From Mytilus galloprovincialis (Eukaryota > Mollusca > Bivalvia > Mytilida > Mytilidae), in NCBI RefSeq assembly GCF_965363235.1, contig NC_134838.1:15098441-15162440 (forward strand): DNA of 64,000 nt, written 5' to 3'. The notes under the pieces are model-generated. The model saw nothing but the letters and a program-made list of their open reading frames with translations. It had not been told where the DNA came from and made no database searches. The number at the start of each line of letters is the position of its first letter. The first letter of the stretch is position 1. Made by a program: the position numbers and the translations under genes. Below are positions 13,456 through 52,100 of the stretch, piece by piece.

Positions 13456-13502
13456 CTACATCATTTCTTCTGACAGCTGCGACAAAAGATCATCACTTAA
13501 AT
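13456..13502 (-). CDS. HROB: HROB exon 9, C-terminal acidic peptide and stop
   Basis: The acceptor is TTATTTATTTCAG. Two bases complete an Asp codon, and the exon then reads LSDDLLSQLSEEMM and TAG. This mirrors the human C-terminal ADDLDGLLSELPEDFF. Phase and sense fit exon 8 exactly. Only 47 nt are coding, and the family match at this length is what identifies it. Confidence 0.85.
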
Positions 13503-16500: not shown

Positions 16501-19500
16501 AAAAGCTTTGGAGAATTGTTCAGTATCAGATATCTAGCATGTGTCTAGATGCAGTTAATCAAGTTTTGAAATAAAATGGTTGCTTGCACATGATTTTTGA
16601 TTACTTAGCTTGGAAAGTAAATAGGATTTAATGTGATAAATAATACTAATGCTTACATAGTCATGAGTAAATATTTATCGCATGACACTAAAAGAGAGAT
16701 TTTGAGGACTAAATTGAGAAATTGGACTATAAATCAGAATTTAAAGTGAGATAAGACAAACAACTTAGCCGGTGAGATGGGGTGAAGTACTTTTAGCTGC
16801 TAATTAAGTAACTGTATTCTTTGATACAGCCATAACAGTATCATTATTGTGTTTTGTCCAGTCCTTTTATAGCAAATTTGTAGTCAATTGTCAATTGATG
16901 ATCTTTTATGGTCTGTTATAAATGGTAATTCAAAGTTTTTTTTTAATTTGGGCAATTTGGAGCTTGGAATATTGTACATGTAACCTGTATAGACATTCAG
17001 ATTATTTAGACAACATGTACCTTTATTTTGCCTGTTGAAGAAAATAAAAGAAATACCCAATTATATATATATGCACTATCAATATTATGACTAAGTTCTT
17101 AGTTAATTGAAATATATTTAATAAAGAGCTGCACCATGAACACATGATACACCCAACACCCTTTTAGCTTTTCTTCATGCTTTAAATGAAATCTATTTGC
17201 GATGTTGTCTGACAAGTCTTGACAATGGACGAATGGACAACGGTACACCATAATATGTCCTGTAAATTGTTTTGTTTACCTTGACCTGTTACGTTACTTA
17301 CTCATCAACATTCACAGGATATGGTTGCTTAAGTATATTAATAATTTCTTTAGGTCCCTTTTTCTAACTCATCATATTTAAAAAATAAAATCAAAAGTAC
17401 TGGTAAAGTAAATCTAAAATAACTTTACATATATCAATTTTTAAAAAATCAGAAAAATTGTGCACAGTTAAATTGTGCATTTAAATAAGAACTCACCATC
17501 ATGCCACATGGAATCAACTTCAAAGCATGGTCTGGGTGGATCTCTAACATGTTTCAATACATTCTTGGTAGGAATAGCATTAGATTTTACTGTCATATGA
17601 GTGTCTGTAGTTTTACATATATCAGCTGTCACTTGAGTCCGATTTGATGATTTAAACCGTAAACCATTTTTTACTGATGGACTAGCACTACATTCAGTAG
17701 TTTCACTATTTGATGCCTGCCTTACACTATTACCAGATTTACTAGGTACATTGGGAACATTTCTTTCGTAATTATTGCTTGCATTTGTGTTTCTCACTTC
17801 AAGAGGGGTATTGTCATGGCCAATCTTGTTAGAATTAAAGTCTGTTGAACACAGATTTCTACTGAAATAAGGCTTCTCATTAATTTTTCTTTCATCATAT
17901 GCATGTGTCAAGCTTATTGAAGACGAAGCTTGATTTAAATTTTGTTTATTTTCATTCATAGAAACTGGTGTATTGGGAACTCTACTGTTAACAGATGGAG
18001 TTATGTTCACATTATTTGGCACTGTTGGTTTTGCCAATACTTGGCTATTGTTTAAATTTGGTGTCAGAGCTATGTGACTTCCTGTGTTATTTGACTGAGC
18101 TGTGTGACTTCCAGCACTCTGTACTGAATTACATGCAGTGTTCAATATATTTGGTGTTTTCACAAATTTAAACTTGTTGGAACTTTGTGGCCTCTGAGGT
18201 GTCTGATTAGAAGAATTCTGTTGAATTGTTGGAGTATGTACAGTAGGATTATGAGTTAGTTTTGGAGTTGTCACACCCATACTGCGTCCTGTCTGATCTG
18301 ATCTTGCTAAGTTACTGCTTTTTATTATATTTCTAGAATTGTTTGGAATAGAACCAGGCGTAGATAAATTTCCTTGTCCACATTTGATTGAGAAGGAAGG
18401 TGTAATTTGTTGTCCAAATTTGCTTGATATAGAACCAGGTGTAGCCATATTTCCTTGTCCAAATTTGTTTGAGATTGAACTAGGTGTAGATATATTTCCT
18501 TGTCCAAGTTGTTTTGTGATAGAGTTAGGTGTAGACATATTTCCATGTCTGCAATTGTTTGGCAAGGAACCAGGTGTAGACATATTTCCTTGACCAGATC
18601 TCCTTCGGATATTACTATCTTCACTGATATAAGGTTCCACTTGGTGAAGTACTGAGTTTAAGGATGTATTTTTTTCTATATTTCTTATGGTTCTCAATCC
18701 ATTTGATGTGTTACTATAAATAACAACAACATTGGCTGGAGTGACATTCAGATAGTGGTTTCTGGTTGTTGGACTTATCATGCTAACCTGAAAAGACAAA
18801 TCGGTTTTAATTATATTTTCATTCATTACTTTTAATCATATGAAACATTCCAAGTATACTATCCCTTGTTTTATAAATAGAAATATATACCGGTATATAA
18901 GAAAACAAGAATGTGTCCATAGTACACGGATGCCCCCCACGCACTATCTTTTCTATGTTCAGTGGACTGTGAAATTGGGGTAAAAAATCTAATTTGGCAT
19001 TTAAATTAGAAAGATCATATCATAGGGAACATGACTACAATAGACCACTTTCGAGTTCATTCGCCACCGGAAAAAACTCGTCAATTATACGCGCCTTTAT
19101 GATGTCATTTACCAGATAGAGGGGGTCGCCTGTATCCCTGCACTATTTAAGTTCATCAAGCGTCTTAGTGATCGTCATTGTGCAGGATAAACTAGAAATA
19201 ATGGTTGTTCTGTAGGTACTTAATGACAATTCCCTAATGACAGCAATGCTGATTGTCAATTTTGAGAATTCAATTTGCCGAATAATTCGTACAATATAGA
19301 ATTATAGTTTTCCAACCACTCGCTCAACATTGGAGTGGAAGTGACGACACCCCTAAATGCACAAATGACGTTCACTAAAACCAGAGTTTTTGATGGAAAT
19401 GCATCGAACTCGAAAGTTGTCTATTGATCTTTATACTGCATTGTTCATGGCTTAGGATCATTCTTAGCTATAAGTTTTATTGTGAAATTGACTCATGAAC

Positions 19501-22500
19501 TTCAAATTAAAAAGGTGTGACTAAACAAAAGTTGAGAACTGTGAAAAATTTCCCTTATGGTTGTTTCAAACTATGGACCTACATTCAAAAACTGTCAAAG
19601 TCTATCAGTAATTGAGAACCAATGGATACCTGTCTTTTGTTAAAGACCCTATGTTGACCTCAAGATTATTTTATTTTTTTGTGTTGTTTGGTTGCTGTCT
19701 TATTGATTTGTTTATTTATTCTCAAACCTGCCTTGGCTTTGAAATAGATTGAAAGGATATTTTAGTACTAAGGTTCAAGATTGCACTGCAAACATGTATA
19801 ATCTGCATGAATCTGCATGTACAATTAAACAACCATATGTTAAATATTACTAAGTTTGAATCTTACATTGATTTTATTTATTACATTATGTCAGAATAGT
19901 TTGTTTACAATATTTAGATGGGCTTTCAAAAATCCATCTGCAGTGAAAAGTTAGATGCCTCTTACATAATATCTGATGATAAGAAACCATCATTGTACAA
20001 AGCAGCAATTTCTTTTGCCATTATGTTATGTAACTTTTATTCTAAAATTAACACAATGATCAGTCACGATTTGTAACCCTATCAACTAATTTCATTTAAA
20101 ACATGTTAGTGACCGATTTGCAAGATTATTTAAATGGCTGCAACAACAAACGCAATCATTGTCATATCTAAATAGTATTGATGGAAACTTTTCGTTGCCA
20201 AGATAATTAATTAAAATATCTCCAGAAATGCACTGAAAAATCAATCAAATAAACAAAATGTCAAATTTATTTATACCATCTGATAAAGAAGTCAAGTCGA
20301 TTTTTTGGGCTTTGTTTATAAATAAGAGCATTATTCAGATTTCTGGTTAACTTCATTTACAATAGACTTCAAACTTAATATTAAGAAGTATATGCTGGCA
20401 TTTAATTAAGTTTTCTTATAGGAAATCTAATATCACAATGATTTCTATTTACCAAAGCAATTCTGATAAGTTTTACAGGTTATATATGGTCTAAAATCAA
20501 TTGCACAAGAAGTAAAAATTAGTTTTAATCTCTTTCTTAATGCACGTTTTGTTTAATCATAATCTAAAGTGTTTTTTTATTGAGGGGTGATAAAAAAAAA
20601 TCTCTGATAATGACTTAAAGTAAATTTGTTCCAGAATCTTTACAAATTTACTTCTTGTTCTTGAAAACAACAACAAAACCCAGAAAACAAATGAAGTTCT
20701 ATCTTGACTGACAATTTTCTATAAAGATGTTGATGTTGCTATGACTGCAGTTATCAGTGTGTAATATGCCAACTCATGTCTTATCCTGCAATGACATTTG
20801 GGATTTCAATAACAGAACAATTTATTACTGGAGAATAGTTTTGTTCAGGATTTTGTTATCACCATGCAATTACTTTTTAGCATATAAAGGGAGTATAATA
20901 AGTTAAAACCAGATGCTCCACAGAGCGCAGCTTTATACGACCGCAGAGGTTGAACCCTGAACGGTTGGGGCAAGTATGGACACAACATTCAAGCTGGATT
21001 CAGCTCTAAATTTGGATTGTGATTAAATAGTTGACACAGCATAGGTTTCTGACACAGAATGAATGTGGTCTAATAAACTTAATAAAATTTGTTTTTTGCC
21101 TTTGAGCAATTCACTATGCTGTTGGATATCAATCCTCTCAAAAAAATGTTTGAAGAAATTTTCTTTTTATTTATGAAATCTGAAATGAGAAAAATTGAAC
21201 CCCCCCAATTTTTTTTTCACATCCCCCTTTCCCTTATTCGAAAACTGATCTCAATTAAAATTTCTAATGGAGTTTGCAACAATAACTACTCATTTAAATA
21301 CATCATAAAATATTAAAATGTAAAAAAAGTGCTTGTTATCACTGAATGGTAAAGATTGTTTTAATTTATCAGTTGGTAGTAAAAGTAAATATACATTGTA
21401 TATTGTATAAAACAATGATTTAAGTTGATTCAACTACTATTCTGGACAAAGAAAGATAACTCCAATTGAAAATTCCTTGCTATTGCGCAATATTGTGCAA
21501 TTAGATATTTCTTGCTATTGCGCAATACAAAATTTCTTGCTATTGCACAATACTGTGCAATTGAAGATTCCTTGCTATTGCTGAATACTGTGCAATTGAA
21601 AATTTTTTGCTATTGCACAGTACTTAATATAATAATTTTGGATCCTGATTTGGACCAACTTGAAAACTGGACCCATAATCAAAAATCTAAGTACATGTTT
21701 AGATTCAGCATATCAAAGAAGCCCAAGAATTCAATTTTTGTTAAAATCAAACTTAGTTTAATTTTGGACCCTTTGGACTTTAATGTAGACCAATTTGAAA
21801 ACGGGACCAAAAATTAAGAATCTACATACACAGTTAGATTGGGCATATCAAAGAACCCCAATTATTCAATTTTTGATGAAATCAAACAAAGTTTAATTTT
21901 GGACCCCGATTTGGACCAACTTGAAAACTGGGCTAATAATCAAAAATCTAAGTACATTTTTAGATTCAGCATATCAAAGAACCTCAAGGATTCAATTTTT
22001 GTTAAAATCAAACTAATTAAGTTTAATTTTGGACCCTTTGGACCTTAATGTAGACCAATTTGAAAACGGGACCAAAAATTAAGAATCTACATACACAGTT
22101 AGATTCGGCATATCAAAGAACCCCAATTATTCAATTTTTGATGAAATCAAACAAAGTTTAATTTTGGACCCTTTGGGCCCCTTTTTCCTAAACTGTTGGG
22201 ACCAAAACTCCCAAAATCAATCCCAACCTTCCTTTTATGGTCATTAACTTTGTATTTAAATTTCATAGATTTCTGTGTACTTATACTAATGTTATGGTGC
22301 GAAAACCAAGAAAAATGCTTATTTGGGCCCCTTTTTGGCCCCTAATTCCTTAACTGTTGGAATCTCAACTCCCAAAATCAATCCCAACCTTCCTTTTGTG
22401 TTCATAACCCTTGTGTTTAAATTTCATTGATTTCTATTTACTATTACTAAAGTTATTGTGCAAAAACCAAGAATAATGCTTATTTGGGCCCTTTTTTGGA

Positions 22501-25500
22501 CCCTTATTCCTAAACAGTTGGAACCAAAACTCCCAAAATCAATCTCAACCTTCCTTTTGTGGTCATAAACCTTGTGTCAAAATTTCATAGATTTCTATTT
22601 ACTTAAACTAAAGTTATAGTGCGAAAACCGAGAAAATGCTTATTTGGGCCCTTTTTGGCCCCTTAATTCCTAAACTGTTGGGACCAAAACTTCAAAATCA
22701 ATCCCAACCATCCTTTTGTGGTCATAAACCTTGTGTTTAAATTTCATAGATTTCTATATCTAAAGTAATTGTGCGAAAACCAAAAGTCTTCTGACTATGA
22801 CTACGACGAGGACGACAACGCCAAAGTGATACCAATATATACGATCAAAAAATTTTCAATTTTTGCAGTCGTATAAAAACAAGGTTTTATGTCAATAGCA
22901 TTGGCCTGATTTATTTTAGCATAGTTTAGCTTTCAGTGACTGAGTATTTCTTTTCCTTCATGTCTCTTGTATATCTGAAGTATTGTGTCAATTTTTCTAG
23001 AAGTTACAGGCCTCTAGATGGTATCTATGAAATAGATTTTTCCTTACACTTTCCTAAATATGGACCATTCTGGTTAGTGGTGAAAGGGTTGTAAATTTTT
23101 TGGAAAAAAAATTCACATAAGGAGGACCTATGAACTTTAATACTGATCCTAATTTTGCCAGGATATTGTTGCATTTTTTCTACACTGCACCAATGATCAT
23201 GCTCCCTGTCATACTGTTAGTACTATTCCAGGACGAATCAAAACAGTCATATTTTTGCACCCCTGCTATTATGCAAGTGCCAACTCCTTATTTTTTAGCA
23301 CAGGGCCGTAACTAGGGTTCGAATTCAGAGGAGGCAGGGGTTTGGGGGCCGGCGATTGAGGAGGGTTGGGTTTTTTTCCTCTTTCAGTAAAATGGCTAAA
23401 AATGACCGTTTTCCTTCGATTTCCTTACATCAGTATTGCTTGAACCTGGGAGCAATTTTTATGCAAAAAGAAGCTGAGATTGCTATTGGGGGTGTGCCAA
23501 GGCTCCGTTTTGAAGGTCACCTCACGGCCCTGTTTTAGCATTTCTTTTCAGTGAAGGTTAAAATTCTCTGTCAATTCAAAGATCCAATTCACCAACTGGC
23601 ATAATCTTATGTAATTTTTCTATTTTTTGTTTTAAGTTCAAAGAATTTTTTTTACTGCTGGTTGTATAGATATATTATTAATTTCCACAAAACAAGCACT
23701 AGAAAATTAAAATCTACATTGTTCAGTATCTTGTGCATTCTGTTTTGAAATGTGTTCATGAAGAAATAGTAAAGCTGAAACTGTATTATTATACCATTAT
23801 CACCAACTTAATTAGAACCTAGCATGCAATTTTAAATCATAATTTAAATGTAAAAAAATATGCTTCAAAGTTAAGAAAGAACAAATTACTACTCGTCAGG
23901 AAGTCTTCTCATCTATTGATCTTTGTAAAACAAAATACCTTAAAAGCTGTACATGTTAACAAATGGATTTGTTAAAGTCATCCATAGAAACAATACATTA
24001 CTGTCAGCCTTTATTGGAAGAGTATAAAGATTTATTGTGACAATTTGGAAATATCATTAATTTATTTTCACAGTTGTTTTCACAATTTATCCATTCATCC
24101 TCGTATGTTATGATATACGGTTGTATTGTCTTTCAACAAACTATATAAATAGTCTACAGTTTTGTCCTTTCTTTAATTTCTATGATTGGCATATATCTTT
24201 CAAGCCACACTAGGGTATCTTAAATTGTGTCTTTGAAATAAAGTGGTTATGATTTATTCACATATTAATGTTACACATGGGACAAGACATAATAAGAGTA
24301 GAAAGTCTTACTGTTGTAATCAGGTTTAGTTTAAAACCAATTCATTTAAGTTGAAATTTTCTGGTATGGATAATTACAAAGCTTGTTTCATTGTGACAGC
24401 TTGTCCAAGTTTGTCACTTTACATGAAAACTAATAGGACTTTGTTTTGAATGATATGTCATATAATAAATGCAAAAAAATGAGGAATTATAATTTGACTA
24501 TTAAAGAATATAATATTGTGACCTTTTCTTCTTGTTAATAGTCATTTCTCGATAAACATTTTTTTTTAATATTAAAGTGTTTAAGCTAGGTATCAAAATA
24601 TATGCTAAAAAAATGAAATTTGAAGACAACAAGCTTGTTGTTCAGTGGCTGTCATTTGTTGGTGTCCTTCATATGTGTTTCTTGTTTTTTGTATAGGTTG
24701 TTGGTTTTCCTGTTTTCAAGTACCTATGAAACAACCCTTTTTACTAGTTGATCATGCATAATGACCATTACTAAGACACTTGATGAACTTTAACAATGCC
24801 TGGTAGGGATACAGGCTTGGTAAATGACATCATAATGGCACTAATTTGACAAACTATTCTGGTGTTGAACATCTCAAAGTTTGTCTATTCAACTTTAAGG
24901 GTATTATTTTCTGTGTATAGAGATGTTGTTCCTATTTGATTTCCTGCATTTTCAAAGAAAAAGAAAAGAAAACTTTTTCATGCGCAGCAGATTTCAATTT
25001 GATAGTCCTTAGCTTATCCAAAATATCTATTATCTATTATCAAATTTGAGAAAGTCTTGCCTTGCTGTTTCAGAGATAAAATAATTTTAGAATGATCTAT
25101 TCTGAACACAACTGAACTTCTTTCTTATTCAACCTACATGTCTGAGGAATACAGTTCCAGGTTGAAGGTCACACTGATGTTCTTTCTTATTCAACCTACC
25201 TGTCTGAGTTCAACAACAGTTCCAGGTTGAAGGTCACACTGATGTTCTTTGTTATTCAACCTACCTGTCTGAGTACAACAACAGTTCCAGGTTGAAGGTC
25301 ACACTGATGTCCTTTGTTATTCAACCTACCTCTCTGAATACAAAAACAGTTCCAGGTTGAAGGTCACACTGATGTTCTTTGTTATTTAACCTACCTGAAT
25401 TTGTCCTATTAGAATCAAAATAATTCATGGCAGCCATTGATTTGTTTTCATTTAACCATAGGTTGGTCATTTATATTCGTATTTTATATAATCAAATATA

Positions 25501-28500
25501 AATGCCCAACCCATGGTTAAATGAAAACAAATCTACAGCTGCCATGAATTATTTGTAATATATGTAAGGTATAATAATAACAGTTCTTTCTTATTCAACC
25601 TACCTGTCTGAGTACAACAACAGTTCCAGGTTGAAGGTCACACTTATGTCCTTTGTTATTCAACCTACCTGTCTGAGAACAACAACAGTTCCAGGTTGAA
25701 GGTCACACTGATGTCCTTTGTTATTCAACCTACCTGTCTGAGAAGAACAAAAGTTCCAGGTTGAAGGTCTCACTCATGTTCTTTGTTATTCAACCTTCCT
25801 GTCTGAGTACAACAACTGTTCCAGGTTGAAGGTCACACTGATGTCCTTTGTTATTCAACCTTCCTGCCTGAGAAGAACAACAGTTCCAGGTTGAAGGTCT
25901 CACTCATGTTCTTTGCTATTCAACCTACCTGTCTGAGTACAACAACTGTTTCAGGTTGAAGGTCACACTGATGTTCTTTGTTATTCAACCTACCTGATTG
26001 AGTACAACAACAGTTCCAGGTTGAAGGTCACACTGATGACCTTTGTTATTTAACCTACCTGTCTGAGTACAACAACAGTTCCAGGTGGAAGGTCACACTG
26101 ATGACCTTTGTTATTTAACCTACCTGTCTGAGTACAATAACAGTTCCAGGTTAAAGGTTACACTGATGTTCTTATTAGTTCAACCTTCCTGTCTGAGTAC
26201 AACAACTGTTTCAGGTTGAAGGTCACACTGATGTTCTGTTATTCAACCTACCTGATTGAGTACAACAACAGTTCGGGGTTGGTGGTCACACTGATGTTCT
26301 TTGTTATTTAACCAACCTGTCTGAGAACAACAACAGTTCCAGGTTGAAGGTCACACTGATGACCTTTGTTATTTAACCTACCTGTCTGAGTACAATAACA
26401 GTTCCAGGTTAAAGGTTACACTGATGTTCTTTGTAGTTCAACCTTCCTGTCTGAGTACAACAACTGTTTCAGGTTGAAGGTCACACTGATGTTCTTTGTT
26501 ATTCAACCTACCTGATTGAGTACAACAACAGTTCGGGGTTGAAGGTCACACTGATGTTCTTTGTTATTTAACCAACCTGTCTGAGTACAATAACAGTTCC
26601 AGGTTGAAGGTAACACCGATGTCCTTTGTTATTTAACCTACCTGTTTGATGTACAACAACAGTTCCAGGTTGAAGGTCACACTGATGTTCTTTTTTATTC
26701 AACCTACCTGTCTGAGTACAACAATAGTTTAAGGTTGAAGGTCACACTGATGTTCTTTGTAGTTCAACCTTCCTGTCTGAGTACAACAATAGTTTCAGGT
26801 TGAAGGTCACACTGATGTTCTTTGTTATTCAACCTACCTGATTGAGTACAAAAACAGTTCGGGCTTGAAGGTCACACTGAGGTTCTTTGTTATTTAACAT
26901 ACCTGTCTGAGTATAACTGCCCCAGGTTGAAGGTCACACTGATGTTCTTTGTTGTTTAACCTACTTGTCTGAGTACAACAACAGTTCCAGGTTGAAGGTT
27001 ACACTGATGTTCTTTGTTATTCAACTTACCTGTCTGAGTATAACAACAGTTCCGGGTTGAAGGTAACACTGATGTTCTTTGTTATTCAACCTACCTGTCT
27101 GAGTACAACAACAGTTCCGGGTTGAAGGTCACACTGATGTTCTTTGTTATTCAACCTACCTGTCTGAGTACAACAACAGTTCCAGGTTGAAGGTAACACT
27201 GATGTTCTTTGTTATTCAACCTACCTGTCTGAGTACAACAATAGTTACAGCTTGAAGGTCACACTGATGTTCTTTGTTATTTAACCTATCTGTCTGAGTA
27301 CAATAACAGTTCCAGGTTAAAGGTTACACTGATGTCCTTTGTTATTTAACCTTCCTGTCTGAGTACAACAACAGTTCCTTGTTGAAGGTCACACTGATGA
27401 CCTTTGTTATTTAACCTACCTGTCTGAGTACAACAACAGTTCCGTGTTGAAGGTCACACTGATGACCTTTGTTATTTAACCTACCTGTCTGAGTACAATA
27501 ACAGTTCCAGGTTAAAGGTTACACTGATGTTCTTTGTAGTTCAACCTTCCTGTCTGAGTACAACAACTGTTTCAGGTTGAAGGTCACACTGATGTCCTTT
27601 GTTATTTAACCTACCTGTCTGAGTACAACAACAGTTCCTTGTTGAAGGTCACACTGATGACCTTTGTTATTTAACCTACCTGTCTGAGTACAATAACAGT
27701 TCCAGGTTAAAGGTTACACTGATGTTCTTTGTAGTTCAACCTTCCTGTCTGAGTAAAACAACTGTTTCAGGTTGAAGGTCACACTGATGTTCTTTGTTAT
27801 TTAACCAACCTGTCTGAGTACAATAACAGTTCCAGGTTGAAGGTAACACTGATGTCCTTTGTTATTTAACCTACCTGTTTGATGTACAACAACAGTTCCA
27901 GGTTGAAGGTCACACTGATGTTCTGTGTTATTCAACTTACCTGTCTGAGTACAACAACAGTTCCGTGTTGAAGGTAACACTGATGTACTTTGTTATTTAA
28001 CCTACCTGTCTTTGTACAACTGCCCCAGGTTGAAGGTCACACTGATGTTCTTTGTTATTCAACCTACCGATCTGAGTACAACTGCCCCAGGTTGAAGGTC
28101 ACACTGATGTTCTTTGTTATTTAACCTACCTGTCTGAGTACTACAACAGTTCCAGGTTGAAGGTCACCCTGATGTTCTTTCATCAAACTCTGATGAACTG
28201 TGCCATGAATCCTTCCTGTAATTTATAGTAACAACAGGTATTGATATTAAATCTACTCACTGGGCATTTTATGCTTACAACATTAATATACTCCCCCCCC
28301 CCACCCCCTTTATATTAAATGATAGCAGGTTTTAATTTTATATGCAGATTGTGAATAACTAAAAGCTTGCTTTCAATTTTATATAAAGTGGTTTTAAGGA
28401 GTCTGTATTGTGCTTCTAGCAAATTTATAAAACAGTCTTTAAGCAGTCAGCCAACCATGAGAATTAGGTCAAGGGCAATTGATATAAGTCAGACAGTCAA

Positions 28501-31500: not shown

Positions 31501-34500
31501 TTTCTGTGCTTTCTATGTATTTTTTCTCTCTTTATTTGTTGCAGTTAATAAAAAAACTAAATTTAACTTTGAGAAAGAATGAATTTTTGATATGAAATAG
31601 ATGAAAAAATTTTGAAAACAAAATATGTCATGTGCCATCCACTGCCTGGTTTTTCCATGGACACCCTCTTAACTATTTTATTAGACCAAATAAAAATATA
31701 TGTGTGGTTCCAGTTACCCGACCGACCCTAGTTCAAACCCCCTGACCCTAGAACTTTTTTATTCATTTCTGAAAAATAAATTTTCAAACGATCAAATTTT
31801 GAGGAATGTGATTTAAAATAATTAAAATCATATCTGTCATCTAAATTTCCATCAGAAGTATATGTTACAGCTAAAATTCAAGAATTCATAACAGATTGCA
31901 GCAACATTAACTAAAAACGTATCATGACTGTTTATTTTACAACCAAACACATGTAAAAATGGCGGACTTCCGTTTGGGGCGTGTATAATTCCGGAAACAA
32001 TTTCGGTAAGCACTTGATTTTTTTTCCGGATTTTGACAATCAAAAAAAAAATGAAGACCTACCGACTCTGTTTTTTTAAAAGTATGTAACTGGAACCACA
32101 CATATATTTTTATTTGGCCAACTAACATGCATATAAATATACCTTTACCTACCAGATTTATCTTTTAAACAAATACTAGCATCAGACCCCTGCCAGTCCA
32201 CACTCTCTATAACAGCTATCACTAGGGGTACCTTTCCTTTAGGTAGTAGTTTCTTTTTGGCCTAAAAATGTATTTTATACTATATACATGTATTTTTAAA
32301 ACTGATGAAGGTATACATAAATAAAGGAAAAAGCATTAAAAGCAGAAATTGGCTATGATTTACCTTCGTTTAAATCAACTTGAAATGTTTTCCCTTCTTA
32401 GGCCTAACATTAGCAAAATTTCAACTACTTGCAGCAAGGAACGACTGCACTCCAGTCCTTCCAGAGTTCCTTTTCAATAAATAAGAAGGAAGCATTGAAG
32501 TTTTCAAAATATATAATAAAAGTATAGCTCACCAATTCCTGTTTCCAAGCTAAAGACTGAGAAAAATCAACACGTTTTAAACTTTTTTTTTATGAATAAC
32601 CTACACAGAAAAGGCATTTGAGAAAAATAATACATGAGTGCTTAAAATTTTCTTTCGGAAAAAATGAAGATATCAACTGCTCATTCTTATTTGAAATTAC
32701 ATTATCTTAGTTAGCTCCCTTTGTAAAGCAAATAAAAGCAAGAAAATGTACCCATAGGACACCATGCCCAGCTTGCACTATCAGTCTCCCTGCTCATGAT
32801 CAGTGAACAATGAAACCACTCATTCTATAAAACTAGAGGCTGTGTTGTTCACCTGCATGTTCAACTTGTAAAATATAACATCATTAAAGGTCAATAACTC
32901 CAGAATGAGTTAACTATTAATTCAGTTTTGACGACATATGTGAAGATCTTGACCTGCTGATCATTTCTGCATTTAAAGTTTTTATCTATCTTTATGGTAT
33001 TGGCTAACCTGTGGTGTCAATTAATTTTCAAAATAAAATACCCTAAGAATGATTTTTGCCGATTTGATTCCAATTAGCCTAGCAGTTTCAGAGGAGAAGA
33101 TTTTTTGTAAAATTTAAAGATATTCCCATGACTCTTTGGATCAGGTGTGCTATAAATTTCTCATAATAAAAAAACATGAGCTCAGGTTCTAGTTTATGTA
33201 AACTACTTTCACCAATAAACAGTTGTGCCATAAGAGCATTATACGCCAGTCACATTTTCTAAGAATAAAGTTAAATAACTTCTCAATATTATCTATCATT
33301 AATTTTTGAAAAACTAAAGGGAGGTTATCTTATTGCGAACCCTATCGTAGTTTTCCACAGATTCACCTGCAAGTTACCTGTCCATTTAAACTTTTGTAAG
33401 TTCTATTGTCCAATCTAAGAAATACAATAGCTATTGTTTTCTGTTAAGTTTATTCAATGGGACCTTTACATTTCTTGCAAGTTACATCCCAGCTCCTTTG
33501 TTCTAACAGGGGTGATTTGAGCCGGATCACCCCTACCAGATCACCCCAGTTTGAGTTTCTTTGTAATGCATGCTTTCCTTTGTTCTGTAACATTTTGGCG
33601 GGAATGTCAAATCCACTATAAAACTTATAATTAATTATACGGAAAAGACTATTTATCAAAATTCATGTAGAAAATATCTAGTGTATAGGCTGGGATTCGA
33701 ACAAGACCTTTAGCATATCAAGCCACGACACATACCACTACACCAGGACGACTGGATAAAAACTAACGGTATTTTAACATAGTTAAAGGAAGCAAGATCT
33801 TCTTATAATTGGGGCGAGTTGGCAAACTTTTATTCAGTGGGGTTTAAACCTTTTTCGTTAATAAGTGGGTTGTCAGGCTGATTGATCAATTTGATTTTAC
33901 ACTTTTACACTTTTTCAAAAGTGGGGCGAGTCAGTAAACAAGAGTTGGGCGTTTTTTTTATAAAGTGGCAATATAGTGTGGGCCGATTGGCAAGTGTGGC
34001 GAGTTGATATTGTTTGATATCTACTCATCATGATTGGGGGTCATAAAGGGTATACATCATAGTAATATAATTATATAAAGTATATTATAATGGTTGTGTG
34101 GCGTTCTAAACTAGATTTTATGAATTGTAATTGATTTTTCGTCTAATCTTAAACAGCTGGGATGTAAAATAGTTATCCCACTCGGACTTGGTGTGTCAGT
34201 GTTAGATCACCCTCTGGCCTCAGGCCTCAGGTGATCTTACACTGACACACTGCGTCCTTGTGGGATAACTATTAAAGAAATCTATCACTCACTGATTAAT
34301 TTACCTGAACAAAAAATTGAACTGTCAATGATGAAAATACATGTACAAATAAGTAATTATAAAACTGCATGTGATGTTGTATTTATTCAATCAATAACAC
34401 ATTTTCAATTTGTTTGATATAAACACTAATTTAAAAATTAAAAGTTGATTTCTGATCAAATTTCAACATTTTACCTATTAAAATTTGTTTTTTAGCTCAC

Positions 34501-37500
34501 CTGGCCTAAAAGGCCAAGTGAGCTTTTCTCATCACTTGGCGTCCGGCGTCCGGCGTCGTCCGTCGTCGTCCATCGTCGTCGTTAACTTTTACAAAAATCT
34601 TCTCCTCTGAAACTACTGAGCCAAATTAAACCAAACTTGGCCACAATCATCATTGGAGTATCTAGTTTAAAAAATGTGTCCGGTGACCCGGCCAACCATC
34701 CAAGATGGCCGCCATGGCTAAAAATAGAACATAGGGGTAAAATGCAGTTTTTGGCTTATAACTCAAAAACCAAAGCATTTAGAGCAAATCTGACATGGGG
34801 TAGAATTGTTAAACAGGTGAAGATCTATCTGCCCTGAAATTTTCAGATGAATCGGATAACCCGTTGTTGGGTTGCTGCCCCTGAATTAGCAATTTTAAGG
34901 AAAGTTTGCAGATTTTGGTTATTATCTTGAATATTATTATAGATAGAGATAAACAGTAAACAGCAATAATGTTCAGCAAAGTAAGATTTACAAATAAGTC
35001 AACATAACTGAAATGGTCAGTTGACCCCTTTAGGAGTTATTGCCCTTTATAGTAAATTTTTAACCATTTTTCATAAATCTTAGTAATATTTTACAAAAAT
35101 CTTCTCCTCTGAAACTACTGGGCCAAATTAATCCAAACTTGGCCACAATCATCTTTTGGGTTAGTAGTTTGAAAAATGTGTCCGGTGACCTGGCCATCAA
35201 ACCAAGATGGCCGCCATGGCTAAAAATAGAACATGGGGTAAAATGCAGTTTTTGGCTTATAACTCAAAACCCAAAGCATTTAGAGCAAATCTGACATGGG
35301 GAAAATTGTTTATTAGTTCAAGATCTATCTGCCCTGAAATTTTCAGATGAATCGGACAACCCGTTGTTGGGTTGCTGGCCCTGAATTAGTAATTTTAAGG
35401 AAATTTTGCTCTTTTTGGTTATTATCTTGAATATTATTATAGATAGAGATAAACTATAAACAGCAATAATGTTCACCCAAGTAAGATTTACATATAAGTC
35501 AACATGACTGAAATGGTCAGTTGACCCCTTTAGGAGTTATTGCCCTTTATAGTCAATTTTTAACCATTTTTCGTAAATCTTAGTAATCTTTTACAAATAT
35601 CTTCTCCTCTGAAACTACTTGGCCAAATTAATCCAAACTTGGCCACAATCATCTTTTGGGTTAGTATTTTGAAAAATGTGTCCGGTGACCTGGCCATCCA
35701 ACCAAGATGGCCGCCATGGCTAAAAATAGAACATGGGGTAAAATGCAGTTTTTGGCTTATAACTCAAAACCCAAAGCATGTAGAGCAAATCTGACATTGG
35801 TAAAATTGTTTATCAGGTCAACATTTATCTGCTCTGAAATTTTTAGATGAATCGGACAACCCGTTGTTGGGTTGCTGACCCTGAATTGTTAGTTTTTAGG
35901 AAATTTTGCTGTTTTTGGTCATTATGTTGAACATTATTATTGATAGAGATAAACTGTAAACAACAATAATGTTCAGCAAAGTAAGATTTACAAATAAGTC
36001 TACATGACCGAAATGGTCAATTGACCCCCTTAGGAGTTATTGTTCTTTATAGTCAATTTTTAACAATTTTCATAAATTTTTAATACATTTTCCACTGAAA
36101 CTAATGGGCCAAGTTCATTATAGATAGAGATAATTTTAAGCAGCAAGAATGTTCAGTAAAGTAAGATGTACAAACACATCACCATCACCAAAACACAATT
36201 TTGTCATGAATCCATCTGCTTCCTTTAATATTCACATAGACCAAGGTGAGCAACACAGGCCCTTTGAGCCTCTAGTTTTTTAGTCTGTTCACAAATAAAA
36301 ACTTGAAATGATAATGTTTAAATAAAGGTCTTCATAAATTTTGTATTCTTTATAACTGAATAACCACAAAAAACATGCAAATTCTTTGAAACATAAATGG
36401 ATGCAGTAGTTTAAAACTAGAGGCTCTCAAGAGCCTGTGTCGCTCACCTTGGTCTATGTGCGTATTAAACAATGGACACAGATAAATTCATGACATAATT
36501 GTGCTTTGGTGATGGTGATGTGTTTGTAGATCTTACTTTACTGAACATTCTTGTTGCTACAATTATCTTTATCTATAATGAACTTGGCCCAGTAATTACA
36601 GTGGAAAATATTTTCTAAAAATTTACAAAAATTTATGAAAAATGCTAAAAATTAACTATAAAGGGCAATAACTCCTTAAGGGGTCAATTGACTATTTTGG
36701 TCATGTTGACTTATTTGTAAATCTAACTTTGCTAAACATTTTTGCTGTTTACAGTTTATCTCTATCTATAATAATATTCAAGATAATAACCAAAAACAGC
36801 AAAAATTCCCTAAAATTACCAATTTAAGGGCGGCAACCAAACAACGGGTTGTCGGATTCATCTGAAAATTTGAGGGCAGAAAGATCTTGACCTGATTAGC
36901 AACTTTTCCCATGTCAGATTTGCTCTAAGTGCTTTGGTTTTTCAGTTATAAGCCAAAAACTGCATTTTTACCCTATGTTCTATTTTTAGCCATGGCGGCC
37001 ATCTTGGTTGGTTGGCCGGGTCACGCCACACATTTTTTAAACAAGATACCCCAATGACGATTGTGGCCAAGTTTGGTTTAATTTGGCCCAGTAGTTTCAG
37101 AGGAGAAGACTTTTATAAAAGAATGACGACGGACGACGACGACGCCGGACGCCAAGTGATGGGAAAAGCTCACTTGGCCCTTCGGGCCAGGTGAGCTAAA
37201 AAATCAGAAATAAACTTTTTTATAATTAAATCAGTGCTTATATTGAACAGATTGAAAATATATCATTGATATTGAATAAATACTGTATCACATGCAGTTT
37301 ATGTGAGTTTATACATGTACATGTATTTCAATCAATAAAGAAGACATTTTTTTGGTCAGGCAAATTAATCAATGAGTGATAGATTTCTCCAAGAAGAAAT
37401 TTAAATGTCCAAGTGAATAAACTACACAGAGAACAATAGCTATTGTATTGATTCAATGGGACAGGTTAACTTGCAAAAGTTTAAATACCTTGGTCAAGAG

Positions 37501-40500
37501 CAGACGACTCTATGGTAAACTTTCATTTGGTTCGCAATAATAGATCTAAACCAGTCACCAAGGTTTCATGAAAACTGCTCAAAGCATTTGTCTGAAAACA
37601 GGAAAATCGCCCTTTTTTTATGAATATTACACCTTATGTAATAATCCTGGGTTTTGATTGGTTGATAGCCAGATATGCCTTTTTTACCCTCTCTGCCGGG
37701 GTATTTGCCAAAAAATACTTTATCCGACTGGACGCTTGTAACGTCACGATCATCAATGAGTTTTTGAAGGTTAACATTCAGTGTAATTAAACAGAAATAG
37801 CATGTTCTTGATTTATCTGTTCAAAATCCAATCACTCGGAAACATAAAATCTAAAATTTATAAAAATCAAAAGGGAGCTCAAGTCAATAGTTCCAGACAG
37901 ACAGGACAGACCAGACCAGACAGAACAGAACAGAACAGAACAGAACAGAACAGAACAAAACAGGACAGGACAGGACAGGACAGGACAGGACAGGACAGGA
38001 CAGGGTTAAAAATGTAATCTCATGGTCAACATAAGATCATACATGTAGAGTTAAATTATGTCCACAGTGACATTTTAGCTATAACTTTTTATGTGTGCTT
38101 AATTTGTGTTTAAGTCAAAATCTTGAATAAATCCCATCTTGCCAATTTGAACCAGAGGAACGTTAGAATCAACAGCATGGAAGACATGAACATTGAATCA
38201 AGATCTTGTCAACACTATGTTCTAGGAATTATGAAATCAAATCCCTGTGAAAATAACCTTTTTAATTTACGATTTATCTCCTGAAAATTATTTATCAGTC
38301 AACTCTTTACTGTCAAAAACTTTTATACCTAGTCATCATGGTCATGTTTCCTTTATGCTTAAAGCTTGAAACTATTTTAAGTCAAAGAGAGATAATAAGT
38401 TTATAAATTTCATGATGGATGACCATGTGAAAAGTTGTAATTGTTAGTCACTGAAAAAATGAAATTTATATAGAACATTCAAGGGGACATTGGCTGCCAA
38501 ATTTGTGTTCACTGATGTGACTCAAATTCTCATGTTGGATTTATAACATACATAAAACATAATTCAAACATGCACATACGTGTATTACTCCAACCTTGAT
38601 TTTCCTTTTGAGAAAATATACTCAAGTCTTTTTATTTCAGTAAACTTTTTAAACATATAATAACAAATCTTACTTTTTGTCCTTGTAAAGTAAAATAATT
38701 ATATAACTTACTTTTTGAAAGCTTGTAGCTATAGAGAATTTGACCATTTGTTCTCTACCATCCTCTCCAAGATCACTAAGTAATGTCTGCCAAGCCACCT
38801 CATTAAATACCTCCTCTCCTGACTGTGAACTCAAGATTACCGATTCATCCTATAATGATAAAATTTATATCTGAGTTAAAAGTAGATTTTTTTGAAAATA
38901 TGTAAGATACAATGAACATAGACACACTGTTGGGGATCCTAGGGGAAGCGTCTAAACCCAAAGTCCCCACTCACTCTATCTAGGCAAATTAAAAATATTG
39001 ATGGAACACTAGTTAAGGCCACACCAATTTAATTCCTTGTTCGACGGACCCGCCCCCACCTATTTTTTTTCAAAACAGATTTTTTTAATTTTTTTTATAT
39101 TCCCGCTTCCCGCATCCGTAAATGTAATCATGTCCATTTCCCGCACCGTTTTTTTGTAAATATTATTAAAAGATATAAACATTTGTCTTTAGATCAAAGT
39201 CTTTTAAACCTATATATAACGATTTAAAACCTATTAGCACCCCACCACACTGTACATATCTGTGAAACCAATTAATCCCAAGTTGGAGTGCTCCGAAATA
39301 TAACAGCGGAAATACCTATACAGAACAAAACATAGGTTTCTTTCCCCCTTACTTATATTCCCTATCACAAAATGTTCATTGTTAGAATTAAATACAAGGA
39401 ACTTCTGAAAGAGTTGCCTTCAACTGCAATTATATTGTATGCTGGCGAAACAAAACTATCCATAGCCGCTGTATGTTTATGCACCTGTCCTGATTGATTC
39501 AGGGACCTGTCGTTCAGCAGTTGTCGTTTGTTGATGTGGTGCATTGGTATTTTCCCGTTTGGATATATAAATTAGATCGTTGGTTTTCCTGTTCGAATTG
39601 TGTACACTAATGATTTTGGGGTCCCTTATACATTGTAGCTTGCTGTTTGGTATTGATCAAAGCCCTGTGTAAAAGTCCTACTTTGACCTGTGTTTGTTAT
39701 TAGCAGGTTGGGAACAATGATACCCCCCCCCCCCCCCTTCCCCTTTTAGACAAGGGGTCATTTTACTGTTGTAGAAAAGAAAATAGAAATACCAAGGATT
39801 TGTAAAGTGCTACTATACAAAACCTTTGATAACTTAGCATTTTTTACTCAAAAAGAGGTTAAATACAACATATTTTAACAACTTTTCTAAAAGAGGGGTC
39901 CACTTATTTTGAATAATATTAAACTGTAAAAGTAAATGTGTTAACTTAACATGGTTAAAGTCCAGAAATATTACAAAATTCTTGGACCATTTAATACCAG
40001 ATAGATATATAGTTCTTTGGGAAAATATGAGCCCTTTTGTACTAAAAAGTGTTTTTTACAAAAAAATATATTATAAAGTTATATTGACCCCTCATTAAAA
40101 GGGATATTTATAACATTAAGGGGTTGTTCCCAACCTGATTATGACTTGGATGGAGAATTGTCTCATTGTAAGTCACACATACAAAGACCAGATTTAATTA
40201 TTCAATTATTTCTTGGTAAACAGGGAAAAAAATACTTCATAAATTAAAGAAATGTCAAAGTACAAGTGATAAATCAAGTCTTAATATTGTCAAATCCTAC
40301 TATTTTATGTTTACAAAAAAAAATTATAATCGCTCGCCTTTACTTTTCAAGCTTCGCCTCAAAAATTTGCAAATTAAATATTTTTTTATTAAAATTTTCA
40401 AATCGCTCGCTCGCCCCAATTTTTGGAGTCCAAAAATCTGTAGAACAAGAAATTAAATTGGTGTGGCCTAAGTATCAAAATCAGGCTTTCACATTTTTTC

Positions 40501-43500
40501 CTCCAAAATTGTAATTGTCGGGCAGGAGTAATTTTTTATCCAGGCAGAACTAAAAGCAAGAAGTACAGATAAGAGAAACTGTTAATTCCTTTATGTATGT
40601 TTACATATGTCATCATGTTTTTCCTGACAAAGTATAGGGCTGTAAGGGAACACTATTTATTTTCAATTTTTTAATCATTTAAATCATTTGTGTTATCAAT
40701 ATCATTATCATGATTATGCAATTCTAATAACAATATAAGAAGAATATGACTAAGGATACAGATGCCCTAAGTTAAAAAGGGGGATGAGTCTACATGGTCT
40801 AGAACAGTAAATGACTTACAACCCAAATACCAACTCTGTCTATGTGTTGTGGTTCTTAGCATTGTGTTAATGAGTTCATAAAATTTGGATGATGAGACAA
40901 ACTTAAGACGTTAAAAATTAGCAAAATGTCAAGGTTATAAATGGGAATAACTCTAGTACAGTAAGCTACTCACCGACCATATTCGAACTTTGTCTGTCTG
41001 TTTTGGATTTTAGCATTGTGTATGAGTTTCATAAATTTGGGTGAGGAAAATTTAAGCTAGAGCGTGGAAATGAAAATGGGATGGACAGATGGACCAGCAA
41101 ACTTTTTGACCCACCTGTTGATGCAAGATCTCTGGGCTTGTTGACACTGTCTGCTTTTGTAACTGTTGATTGTCTTTTATGCTTCCTGGACTCTGAAAAA
41201 CATATGAATTTTTATATTTAATTGAGAAATATAAAAAAAAACTGTAGCCATTGTGAACATGGTGAATGATAGCTTATCTCCACAATTTCTTTATAATTCA
41301 AATGATTGTATTTTCAAAGTTAAGTACAGTTTGTTAGTTTTTCCACAAGTGCCTATTATCTTAGTTTAGAAGGAGTGGTCAACTAGACATTCATATGCTT
41401 GAGGATACCAAACTATACTTGATTAAATAAGTTTCCTTACAATCCTTGGCAACAGTCCGGCAGGACCTGGGAATTTCCTCTTTGTTCTAACAGGAGTCTT
41501 TAGATGGCTTTCTTCATGCTGTCTAGTTTTACTCTGTCTTGTAAAATGACTTGCTGGTTCCTGGTTCTCTGTTACTACAATGTGCTGGGATACTGCTGGT
41601 ACTCTAGCCTGTGTATGGTCTGTTTCACTTATCCTGGAATCTTGTCTTATTTCCTGTTGACAGTTTGTATTCTGAATCTGTTTCTCTTGAAGAATTGTGC
41701 TTGAATGCCTGTAAGCCCCTGTAAGAATGAAAGAAAAAAATATTGTACTGACTTGCATTTAACTATTTAGTAGCTTTCATGTGTAATGAAGTTTATAACA
41801 AATTTTGCTAGTGTTAATTGACTGTCGACAATAATATTTCATGCATTTATACATTTATACCATTTTTTCTTGTTTGACATTTTATCATTTGCACGCGTTT
41901 TAGTTGCTTTGTGGTATGGGATTTGCTCATTGTTGAAGGTAGGTTGGTTACCTATAGTTTTTATTATCTATGTCATATTGTCTCTGTTGGAAAGTTAACT
42001 AATGAATGGTCTATCAAACCATGAAAATAAGGGTCTCTTTGATTGTCACTGACAGTAGAATAAGAAATGTGAAAGTTTTTTATTAATAAATATAGGGGAA
42101 AAAAATCATCCAATTGTTTTTTAAACTCTAAAAGGTATATACATGAAGTTGGGAACAAATGAATATTTTTGTTGGACCTACCTCTCTGAATGTACTTATC
42201 ATCTGGTGATTGTATCAGACCTGGTCTTAACCTTTTGTTAGATGATTGATGATCAGACTCAGAGGATAATCTTTTCTTACAGCCACTAGAATTCCCATCC
42301 TTTGCAGGAGTTCTCCTATCTGTAATATCATCCAGTGGTAGGTCCTTAAAAAAAGAAAAACTAAAAATAAGTAATAAATTATTATAATAGAAAGGCTTTA
42401 AACATGATTTTGTCATAGTCATCAACATTCACCAAGTGCACTTGAATTGTATTCTCATGAAAACAAGGGAATTTTAATAGGGTTTTTATTTATAGAAACA
42501 TTTATTGATTATCACTTTTTTTCTATGTAGCATTTTTTTATTTTTCATTTCTTCATTTTCAAAGATCAGCCGTTTTATATGTAAGCAAGCAGTCAATGAC
42601 AAGACTGCAACCTTTCGATTTTGAATGAAAACCAGAAGACTGGATGTTTCAATATGATTGTACACTATGGAATGAATTCTGAATTACAATAACTTTCTTC
42701 AGATATTATCAAGTTGCAGTTAATACCAAGTTCATGTATTTACTTTTCAACTTGTAAAAATATTAAATATTATTGATAAAATTTTGCTGTGCTTGTGTTT
42801 AATGGCATGAATAATGTTCAGTTTAACATCTAGTTTTGTACCCGTTTAAAAAGGGACATGCTGATTGTGCAAGTCATCAATATAAGCACATGTTTGACTT
42901 GTGATTTTTTTCTTTATTACTGGATTAAGCATTTATTTTTTTTATCAAACTTTCCATTTGCTGCAAACGTAATTAAATAATGCATTCTGTCATCTATCTA
43001 GTTCTCCTGTCATGTGTGTTAATCTACCTGTACAAGTGATTAGTGATCTTTAGCCGGATATCCCTCAGAGCTTGAAAACTGTATCAAGAGTACCCTTTGG
43101 ATTACAATACAATAACCTACGAGTTAATTGTTTATAGTTACTAACAAAAATGGCAGAGGCTAGAAAAAACACAAATTTTGACATTGGCGGAAGATAATTT
43201 AAGGTTTATCATAACAAATGGACACACCGTATTTTCACTTGAAAAACCACTCTGTGTACAGACTTACCTGTGCAGTTTTGAAAGTTTTAAGGCATCCACT
43301 ACATATATAAAAGTTAAATTTATTTTGCATAACAGAAAGATAAAATCGTTTTTGGATCTTAAAGGGCATTTTTTTTGCTTTCTGCAGAAGGTGTAAAAAT
43401 AAATAAACACCTGAATTGCATTTGATGCTGTCAACTCAGTTTCTACCTTTAATTCACCTATAGATATCATCATGCCAATCAAGGACAATCAATTAATACA

Positions 43501-49191: not shown

Positions 49192-52100
49192 GTCTTTTTA
49201 TTGGTTGTACTAGTATAATAGATCAGGGTAACCACCAGGATGAGGTTTTATATAATGTGAGCTTTTTATTGGTTTTACTTAGTATAATAGATCAAGGTAA
49301 CCACCAGGATGAGGTTTTATATAATATGAGCTTTTTATTGGTTGTACTAGTATAATAGATCAAGGTAACCACCAGGATGAGGTTTTATATAATATGAGCT
49401 TTTTATTGGTTTTACTTAGTATAATAGATCAAGGTAACCACCAGGATGAGGTTTTATATAATATGAGCTTTTTATTGGTTGTACTAGTATAATAGATCAA
49501 GGTAACCACCAGGATGAGGTTTTATATAATATGAGCTTTTTATTGGTTGTACTTAGTATAATAGATCAGGGTAACCACCAGGATGAGGTTTTATATAATA
49601 TGAGCTTTTTATTGGTTTTACTTAGTATAATAGATCAGGGTAACCACCAGGATGAGGTTTAATATAATATGACCTCTTTATTGGTTGTACTTGGTATAAT
49701 AGATCAGGGTAACCACCAGGATGAGGTTTTATATAATATGAGCTTTTTATTGGTTTTACTTAGTATAATAGATCAGGGTAACCACCAGGATGAGGTTTAA
49801 TATAATATGACCTCTTTATTGGTTGTACTTGGTATAATAGATCAGGGTAACCACCAGGATGAGGTTTTATATAATATGAGCGTTTTATTGGTTTTACTTA
49901 GTATAATAGATCAAGGTAACCACCAGGATGAGGTTTTAGATAATATGAGCTTTTTATTGGTTGTACTTAGTATAATAGATCAGGGTAACCACCAGGATGA
50001 GGTTTTATATAATATGAGCTTTTTATTGGTTTTACTTAGTATAATAGATCAGGGTAACCACCAGGATGAGGTTTAATATAATATGACCTCTTTATTGGTT
50101 GTACTTGGTATAATAGATCAGGGTAACCACCAGGATGAGGTTTTATATAATATGAGCTTTTTATTGGTTTTACTTAGTATAATAGATCAGGGTAACCACC
50201 AGGATGAGGTTTAATATAATATGACCTCTTTATTGGTTGTACTTGGTATAATAGATCAGGGTAACCACCAGGATGAGGTTTTATATAATATGAGCGTTTT
50301 ATTGGTTTTACTTAGTATAATAGATCAAGGTAACCACCAGGATGAGGTTTTAGATAATATGAGCTTTTTATTGGTTGTACTTAGTATAATAGATCAGGGT
50401 AACCACCAGGATGAGGTTTTATATAATATGAGCTTTTTATTGGTTTTACTTAGTATAATAGATCAGGGTAACCACCAGGATGAGGTTTAATATAATATGA
50501 CCTCTTTATTGGTTGTACTTGGTATAATAGATCAGGGTAACCACCAGGATGAGGTTTTATATAATATGAGCTTTTTATTGGTTTTACTTAGTATAATAGA
50601 TCAGGGTAACCACCAGGATGAGGTTTAATATAATATGACCTCTTTATTGGTTGTACTTGGTATAATAGATCAGGGTAACCACCAGGATGAGGTTTTATAT
50701 AATGTGAGCTTTTTATTGGTTGTACTTAGTATAATAGATCAGGGTAACCACCAGGATGAGGTTTTATATAATATGAGCGTTTTATTGGTTTTACTTAGTA
50801 TAATAGATCAAGGTAACCACCAGGATGAGGTTTTAGATAATATGAGCTTTTTATTGGTTGTACTTAGTATAATAGATCAGGGTAACCACCAGGATGAGGT
50901 TTTATATAATATGAGCTTTTTATTGGTTTTACTTAGTATAATAGATCAGGGTAACCACCAGGATGAGGTTTAATATAATATGACCTCTTTATTGGTTGTA
51001 CTTGGTATAATAGATCAGGGTAACCACCAAGATGAGGTTTTATATAATATGAGCTTTTTATTGGTTTTACTTAGTATAATAGATCAGGGTAACCACCAGG
51101 ATGAGGTTTAATATAATATGACATCTTTATTGGTTGTACTTGGTATAATAGATCAGGGTAACCACCAGGATGAGGTTTTATATAATGTGAGCTTTTTATT
51201 GGTTGTACTTAGTATAATAGATCAGGGTAACCACCAGGATGAGGTTTTATATAATGTGAGCTTTTTATTGGTTGTACTTAGTATAATAGATCAGGGTAAC
51301 CACCAGGATGAGGTTTTATTTAATATGAGCTTTTTATTGGTTGTACTAGTATAATAGATCAAGGTAACCACCAGGGTGAGGTTTTATATAATATGAGCTT
51401 TTTATTGGTTGTACTTAGTATAATAGATCAGGGTAACCACCAGGATGAGGTTTTATTTAATATGAGCTTTTTATTGGTTGTACTAGTATAATAGATCAAG
51501 GTAACCACCAGGGTGAGGTTTTATTTAATATGAGCTTTTTATTGGTTTTACTTAGTATAATAGATCAGGATAACCACCAGGATGAGGTTTTATATAATAT
51601 GACCTCTTTATTGGTTGTACTAGTATAATAGATCAAGATAACCACCAGGATGAGGTTTTATATAATATGAGCTTTTTATTGGTTGTACTTAGTATAATAG
51701 ATCAGGGTAACCACCAGGATGAGGTTTTATATAATATGAGCTTTTTATTGGTTTTACTTAGTATAATAGATCAAGGTAACCACCAGGATGGGGTTTTATA
51801 TAATATGAGTTTTTTATTGGTTGCACTAGTATAATAGATCAAGGTAACCACCAGGATGAGGTTTTATATAATATGACCTCTTTATTGGTTGTACTTGGTA
51901 TAATAGATCAAGGTAACCACCAGGATGAGGTTTTATATAATATGAGCTTTTTATTGGTTTTACTTAGTATAATAGATCAAGGTAACCACCAGGATGAGGT
52001 TTTATATAATATGAGCTTTTTATTGGTTTTACTTAGTATAATAGATCAGGGTAACCACCAGGATGAGGTTTTATATAATATGAACTTTTTGTTGGTTGTA

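Follow-up and report, generated by a model that had tools for sequence, protein, structure and literature searches.

How is a single 5′ splice site settled upon in a gene whose exon end, donor included, is repeated dozens of times in the intron that follows? This question is raised by a stretch of 64,000 nucleotides from the mussel Mytilus galloprovincialis (contig NC_134838.1, positions 15,098,441 to 15,162,440 of the forward strand; hereafter the window, with positions counted from its first letter), where intron 7 of the gene HROB, read on the minus strand, holds a minisatellite built from the exon 7/intron 7 junction itself. Each 65-bp unit joins the 51 coding bases at the end of exon 7 to 14 bases of intron 7. 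We consider it likely, at a probability of about 0.8, that this segment was duplicated and expanded within intron 7, the extra copies most likely being tolerated with the first donor dominant. The elements on which the argument turns are listed below, a slash within a motif marking an exon boundary.

28130 to 28215, minus strand: HROB exon 7, 86 nt, phase 0 end, CAG/GTAGGT, from Pfam and gene models; copy 0 takes its exonic part from the final 51 nt
28116 to 28180, minus strand: unit copy 0 (65 bp), made up of 51 exon 7 nt and 14 nt of intron 7 including the authentic donor
25124 to 28115, minus strand: minisatellite proper, in intron 7, with 43 full copies and 1 partial one; donor GT kept in 35/44
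25418 to 25554, minus strand: palindromic insertion breaking the array, two 60-nt arms with 5 mismatches
25107 to 25123, minus strand: distal array edge, AAAGAAGTTCAG, similar to the unit start AAAGAACATCAG

Tandem Repeats Finder, run on the window, reports an array at 25111-28180 with a period of 65, 47.2 copies and 83% matches, and wrap-around dynamic-programming alignment to the unit resolves 48 segments spanning 28180-25107. Full units account for 44 of these segments, namely 43 array copies plus the exon copy (copy 0); segment 42 is an incomplete unit whose donor is intact, segments 40-41 are the unrelated palindromic insertion, and segment 47 is a 17-base tail. The array start (28180) falls within exon 7, and copy 0 is identical to the consensus at 62 of 65 positions (49/51 exonic, 13/14 intronic), against a best value of 36 among 20,000 base shuffles with 13 rotations each. 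Moreover, an unrooted FastTree tree, most of its supports being modest, places the exon copy among the units. The gene assignment is sustained by a score of 90.2 bits of the joined exons 6, 7 and 8 against the Pfam family HROB (PF15072; curated cut-off 30.8), by a closest protein, the M. galloprovincialis model P0002, sharing 98% identity over 98% of the query, and by the exon 7/8 junction VLRQ/VSMISP, found in five of six Mytilus models (P0002-P0006). Thus, the initial annotation, which had proposed about 45 copies of such a unit, the real exon at 28130-28180 as the outermost member of the family, and HROB exon 7 at 28215-28130, is borne out on each of these points, as it is in pointing to a bivalve; it did not notice the acceptor-like sites, the gene model that fits their use, or the apparently older codon kept in the array.

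Within the array, copies share a mean pairwise identity of 0.887, and near-identical unit pairs, one or two each, recur at lags of 3, 4, 6, 17, 19-21 and 24, a sign of block copying. A strict higher-order period was considered and rejected, mean identity being flat across lags (0.874-0.898). The first 14 bases of the palindromic insertion arm occur elsewhere in the window only in its own other arm. As for the distal edge, its similarity to the unit start is possibly a relic of a founding micro-homology.

One base within the unit appears to date the array relative to its exon. Exon 7 reads GGT (Gly) at the codon concerned, whereas the first base of this codon is T in 43/43 full array copies, 41 of them reading TGT (Cys) and 2 TGA. 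In a protein alignment taking in 10 of 18 database HROB proteins, Gly is found in four M. galloprovincialis/M. edulis models (P0001-P0004), and Cys in M. coruscus (P0005), M. trossulus (P0006), P0007 and Pecten maximus (P0011). On the simplest reading, it looks as though the array was founded while the exon still coded for Cys and the exon changed later, the array being a fossil of the older exon; at this base, neither exon nor array would then have overwritten the other since the exon changed. Foundation from a copy already mutated at this codon was also considered, and it was rejected because the relatives suggest that Cys is the older state. The second exon-specific base, at column 38, is synonymous. 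The fossil codon reading predicts an array in M. edulis as well.

Regarding history and donor use in cells, we infer the following course. A 65-bp segment across the exon 7/intron 7 junction would have been tandemly duplicated in ancestral Mytilus, and the array would have grown within intron 7; unequal exchange, which also shifted whole blocks of units, is the probable mechanism. At the upstream edge the authentic exon would have remained, with protein-level constraint acting on the outermost copy only and intronic copies drifting. In normal transcripts it would be the first donor that is spliced to exon 8, the most upstream donor being the one used in human F7 too; this donor would probably be favoured in being transcribed first and in being the only one to bound a short exon whose upstream acceptor is real. 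Read-through beyond the first donor meets an immediate stop (LRQVG and then the stop codon), so that exon 7 extended to any later donor would be cut short at once and be unproductive. Finally, neighbouring units can be read as GT-AG mini-introns of 61 nt and in-frame pseudo-exons of 69 nt, whose minor use is possible and may be what the gene model P0001, described below, records.

Several points weigh against this course of events. The choice of the first donor is argued from the F7 analogy and from gene models, one of which, P0001, seems to draw on many array sites. The founding breakpoints are suggested by the short distal-edge similarity alone. Likewise, the case for Cys as the older residue draws on four bivalve or bivalve-like proteins, the two aligned vertebrates have Asn and Ser at this codon, and introgression among Mytilus species could blur the picture.

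The spliceosome faces, as initially proposed, an abundance of donors. Counting the exon copy, 36 of 45 copies retain the GT, in line with the three quarters or so first estimated; the nine bases of the real donor are present in 26 of the 45 (the exon copy among them), and CAGGTAAGT in two. Matches to CAG/GTAAGT at 8 or more of the 9 positions number 28 in the 3,023-base array, authentic donor excluded, and 0 both in the remaining 6,319 bases of intron 7 and in the 3,933 bases of intron 6. Splice sites were scored with matrices of generic values, which give a poor rating to the real acceptor of exon 6; on these, 27 of the 35 array donors reach at least the score of the real exon 7 donor. Distinct substitutions in the exonic part of the copies comprise 10 synonymous, 31 nonsynonymous and 3 stop changes, out of 34, 111 and 8 possible ones, respectively. 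Coding selection on the array copies was rejected, since these substitutions distribute as 18/13/13 over codon positions 1/2/3 with no synonymous excess.

The units also carry acceptor-like sites. Exon 7 itself ends CTCAGACAG/GT, that is, with an AG four bases upstream of the donor, so most units bring an acceptor-like CTCAG; most of them read CAGACAG/GTAGGT or near, placing an AG directly before a donor GT in the manner of ratchet-type sites. A donor followed by a YTCAG acceptor is found in 27 of 43 successive unit pairs, 23 of these mini-introns being 61 nt long and 22 leaving ACAG. On the generic matrices, the median score of the CTCAG acceptors in the 32 units with CAGACAG corresponds to the 96th percentile among 522 intronic AGs; for comparison, the genuine acceptors rank at the 62nd (exon 6), 89th (exon 7) and 99.8th (exon 8) percentiles. 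Pyrimidines occupy 7-9 of 16 positions in 31 of these 32 units (7, 9 and 10 in the genuine acceptors of exon 6, exon 7 and exon 8, respectively), short of the strong polypyrimidine tract expected of ratchet points. The 69-nt unit pseudo-exon is open and in frame in 15 of the 23 unit pairs having both sites (42 pairs examined). Hence, as far as can be judged from the bases themselves, the array reads as a chain of potential 61-nt GT-AG introns and 69-nt in-frame pseudo-exons.

It is at this point that P0001, a second M. galloprovincialis HROB model, becomes relevant. This is the one model of the six Mytilus ones with an insert at the exon 7/8 junction, its 63 extra residues lying exactly between VLRQ and VSMISP. 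The last 27 residues of the insert correspond to 25406-25395 joined to 25333-25265, with 61 GT...AG bases skipped. Elements of the fit are the following.

28072 to 28129, minus strand: first mini-intron of the gene model as fitted, 58 nt from the exon 7 donor to the CTCAG of copy 1; leaves ATCG (28071-28068)
28020 to 28067, minus strand: second mini-intron of the gene model as fitted, 48 nt, GT-AG; leaves TTGTACAAAGACAG (28019-28006)
25395 to 25405, minus strand: 11-nt micro-exon GACAAATTCAG, from the spliced alignment
25334 to 25394, minus strand: 61-nt GT-AG mini-intron; once precisely these bases are removed, the reading is GQIQRGRLNNKGHQCDLQPGTVVVLRQ, identical to P0001
25265 to 25333, minus strand: 69-nt in-frame exon consisting of one array unit, with an array donor next at 25264

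In a spliced alignment of the whole insert to the window array, 59 of 63 residues are recovered over 24 segments; 16 segments are 4 nt long, and 14 of these read ACAG. When the first 36 residues were shuffled, the best of 40 shuffles scored 65 versus 117 for the real insert. The first 40 residues alone score 50, compared with a mean of -29.9 and a maximum of -10 for 60 shuffles, a maximum of -34 for 72 other window stretches, and a maximum of -14 for 30 column-permuted arrays. P0001 therefore looks to be built from such an array by removal of tiny introns, and the fact that 4 of 63 residues differ and units are skipped relative to this one array sequence hints at another allele. A contiguous genomic ACAG microsatellite was rejected as the source of the insert, since the joins of ATCG to TTGTACAAAGACAG and of GACAAATTCAG to AGAGG coincide with GT..AG stretches of the window. 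A database search with the insert region retrieved no second protein with the insert (itself only, among 299 candidates), and one with an open reading frame of the array gave 8 candidates, none at E 0.001.

Four other accounts of the array and of P0001 have to be weighed. Tandem arrays are prone to misassembly, and an assembly artefact would be a natural suspicion; artificial repetition is nevertheless unlikely because the copies differ to the extent given above, and P0001, a model from the same species, holds pieces with unit-specific variants of this very array, which makes the artefact extremely improbable. The array might otherwise be a selected platform for the U1 small nuclear ribonucleoprotein (snRNP), shielding the 9.3-kb intron from premature polyadenylation or titrating U1. 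Such a role would fit 28 strong U1-complementary sites in 3.0 kb versus none in 10.3 kb of neighbouring intron, but the donor bases are no better conserved than the rest of the unit: the donor G (column 51) is kept in 42/43 and the T (column 52) in 35/43 copies against a mean column majority of 0.934, and column 52 ties for eighth most variable among the 65. Donor bases are neither unusually conserved nor purged, as would be expected of drifting copies, a pattern that argues against selection for extra donors as well as against strong selection removing them, and that favours tolerance over a selected U1 function, which we regard as very unlikely.

The remaining two accounts concern what P0001 records. 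In scarred recursive splicing, the exon 7 donor would be joined to the CTCAG of a later unit, exposing a fresh donor 4 nt further on, and the repetition of this step would leave about 4 nt (ACAG) each time, so that a fraction of the mRNA would carry a (TDRQ)n-type insert in the oligonucleotide/oligosaccharide-binding fold (OB-fold). The exact position of the insert at the exon 7/8 junction, a spliced fit that beats shuffles, other window stretches and permuted arrays, the recurrence of paired sites at 61 nt and the high acceptor scores all point that way. Considering, however, that (i) P0001 is a gene model and not reads, (ii) its fitted path skips many units and includes odd 1-nt and 7-nt pieces, (iii) this path is not unique, a 20-segment path with more mismatches winning at a higher intron cost, (iv) the insert is absent from five of the six Mytilus models, and the database search with it retrieved no second protein that has it, and (v) pyrimidine tracts in the units are weak, this form of splicing can be put forward as a tentative possibility. 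In the same vein, it is rather doubtful that the minisatellite is a working mini-intron chain, such that in part of the HROB pre-mRNA intron 7 would be removed unit by unit with a scar of about 4 nt each. Alternatively, and quite conceivably although short of probable, P0001 may be an annotation artefact, a gene finder or aligner having chained strong donor and acceptor look-alikes while the array is spliced at the first donor only. The many array donors scoring at least as high as the real one could have drawn a program to them, and no other database protein shares the insert; to our knowledge, however, ab initio predictors do not usually emit chains of many 4-nt exons, and the pairing of P0001 with P0002, two models whose contigs are equal in length, would fit an isoform update by the Program to Assemble Spliced Alignments (PASA). 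Judging by its name and contig, P0001 would belong to the mg10 annotation, which is described as combining PASA transcript alignments with several ab initio predictors through EvidenceModeler and then refining alternatively spliced exons (PMC7653742); the transcript component speaks for recursive splicing, and the merged predictors speak for the artefact. Tiny exons do exist, one of 1 nt being described in Arabidopsis and others of 3 nt earlier (PMC4674806), which again lends the recursive route some credit.

Duplication and tolerance with a dominant first donor remains the preferred reading. The array amounts to a natural experiment on 5′ splice-site choice: some 35 donors have almost identical exonic and intronic surroundings, the main differences between them being how far each lies from the acceptor and in what order they are transcribed. 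It also seems to preserve, as a fossil, the earlier state of a codon now altered in the exon, and it serves as a warning that such arrays can yield odd gene models. If the P0001 chain were real RNA, introns would have been created in bulk by exon-edge tandem duplication. Were the mini-intron chain true, a recombination protein would receive in its OB-fold variable inserts rich in (TDRQ)n, determined by repeat copy number and by mutations in single units. Tandem duplication of an exon end that contains a latent AG upstream would then be a way of producing introns in large numbers.

The rest of HROB is readable by comparison with Mytilus models as nine coding exons running from 45384 down to 13456 on the minus strand, intron 7 occupying 28129-18788 (~9.3 kb). 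Besides exon 7, these are:

45346 to 45384, minus strand: exon 1 (MFEIPDDDDNFWE), from a tblastn match to the M. edulis model P0003 and sequence
42182 to 42344, minus strand: exon 2, by comparison with Mytilus models
41441 to 41718, minus strand: exon 3, by the same comparison
41115 to 41192, minus strand: exon 4, by the same comparison
38712 to 38849, minus strand: exon 5, by the same comparison
32153 to 32261, minus strand: exon 6, start of the OB-fold domain, donor CTG/GTAGGT, from Pfam HROB and sequence
17497 to 18787, minus strand: exon 8, starting cag/GTTAGC (VSMISPTTRNHYLNVTP), from Pfam HROB and Mytilus models
13456 to 13502, minus strand: exon 9, coding end (..LSDDLLSQLSEEMM and stop), by comparison with Mytilus models

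One M. edulis model, P0004, whose contig differs in length from that of P0003, starts at the exon 7 methionine and is possibly truncated. Exon 8 holds, at 18410-18596, a coding 45-bp minisatellite with a 15-residue repeat of the GQGN(I/M)STPGS type, a stretch whose length differs among the aligned Mytilus models. Two more tandem arrays (135/265 bp and 161 bp) lie in intron 7 at 21633-22757, and HROB intron 5 contains about 3 repeats of a 500-bp unit at 34586-36077 (92% match). Elsewhere in the window, a 69-bp array at 49194-53794 counts 66.9 copies with 93% match; its unit length is divisible by 3, and within this array a 195-residue open stretch (52555-53142, plus strand) repeats a 23-residue peptide. 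A PDB search returned 0 matches.

Comparison with known systems places the mussel array among donor-bearing repeats such as those of human F7 and ABCA7: the repeat adjoins an exon, its first copy contains the authentic donor, and later copies keep donor-like sites. Human F7 has a low repeat copy number and a 37-bp unit, versus about 45 copies of 65 bp in the mussel, whose unit, unlike that of F7, consists largely of coding exon and has the length needed for a mini-intron. In F7 intron 7 (intervening sequence 7, IVS7) the most upstream donor alone is normally used, and weakening of this donor leads to exon skipping and to use of downstream cryptic ones (PMC6627357). In ABCA7, a 25-bp variable number tandem repeat of 23.7 copies in the reference begins in intron 18 with the exon 18 donor GT, and the unit as there described starts at this GT and is without exon sequence; the donor one unit further in is used at a low level, retaining one unit, and array length varies between people, its reported effect being exon 19 skipping (PMC5954066). 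With these two precedents, the view of the initial annotation that an array of this kind had not been described does not hold.

Other relatives are found among repeats that make introns. In human duplicated genes, 27 intron modifications by repeats at exon-intron boundaries are reported, with an average 30-bp unit repeated four times and novel introns inferred from paralogues (PMC2812944), and in potato a tandem duplication across an intron-exon boundary supplied both splice sites of a new intron (PMC4974935). The potato case is one duplication, whereas in the mussel dozens of tandem potential introns lie within an existing intron, as read here from genomic sequence alone. Drosophila ratchet points, for their part, are single and scarless sites, and the mussel array, equally a matter of sequence at this stage, is a repeat chain with weak pyrimidine tracts. 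At those points, a juxtaposed acceptor and donor bring about stepwise intron removal (PMC8605326). A C. elegans minisatellite paper is not concerned with donors (PMC4039745), and among the matches listed in the open-access literature searched no array was found that combines a mostly coding-exon unit, tens of copies and units able to act as introns. The mussel array is thus a larger variant of the F7/ABCA7 kind, those two human arrays having smaller units.

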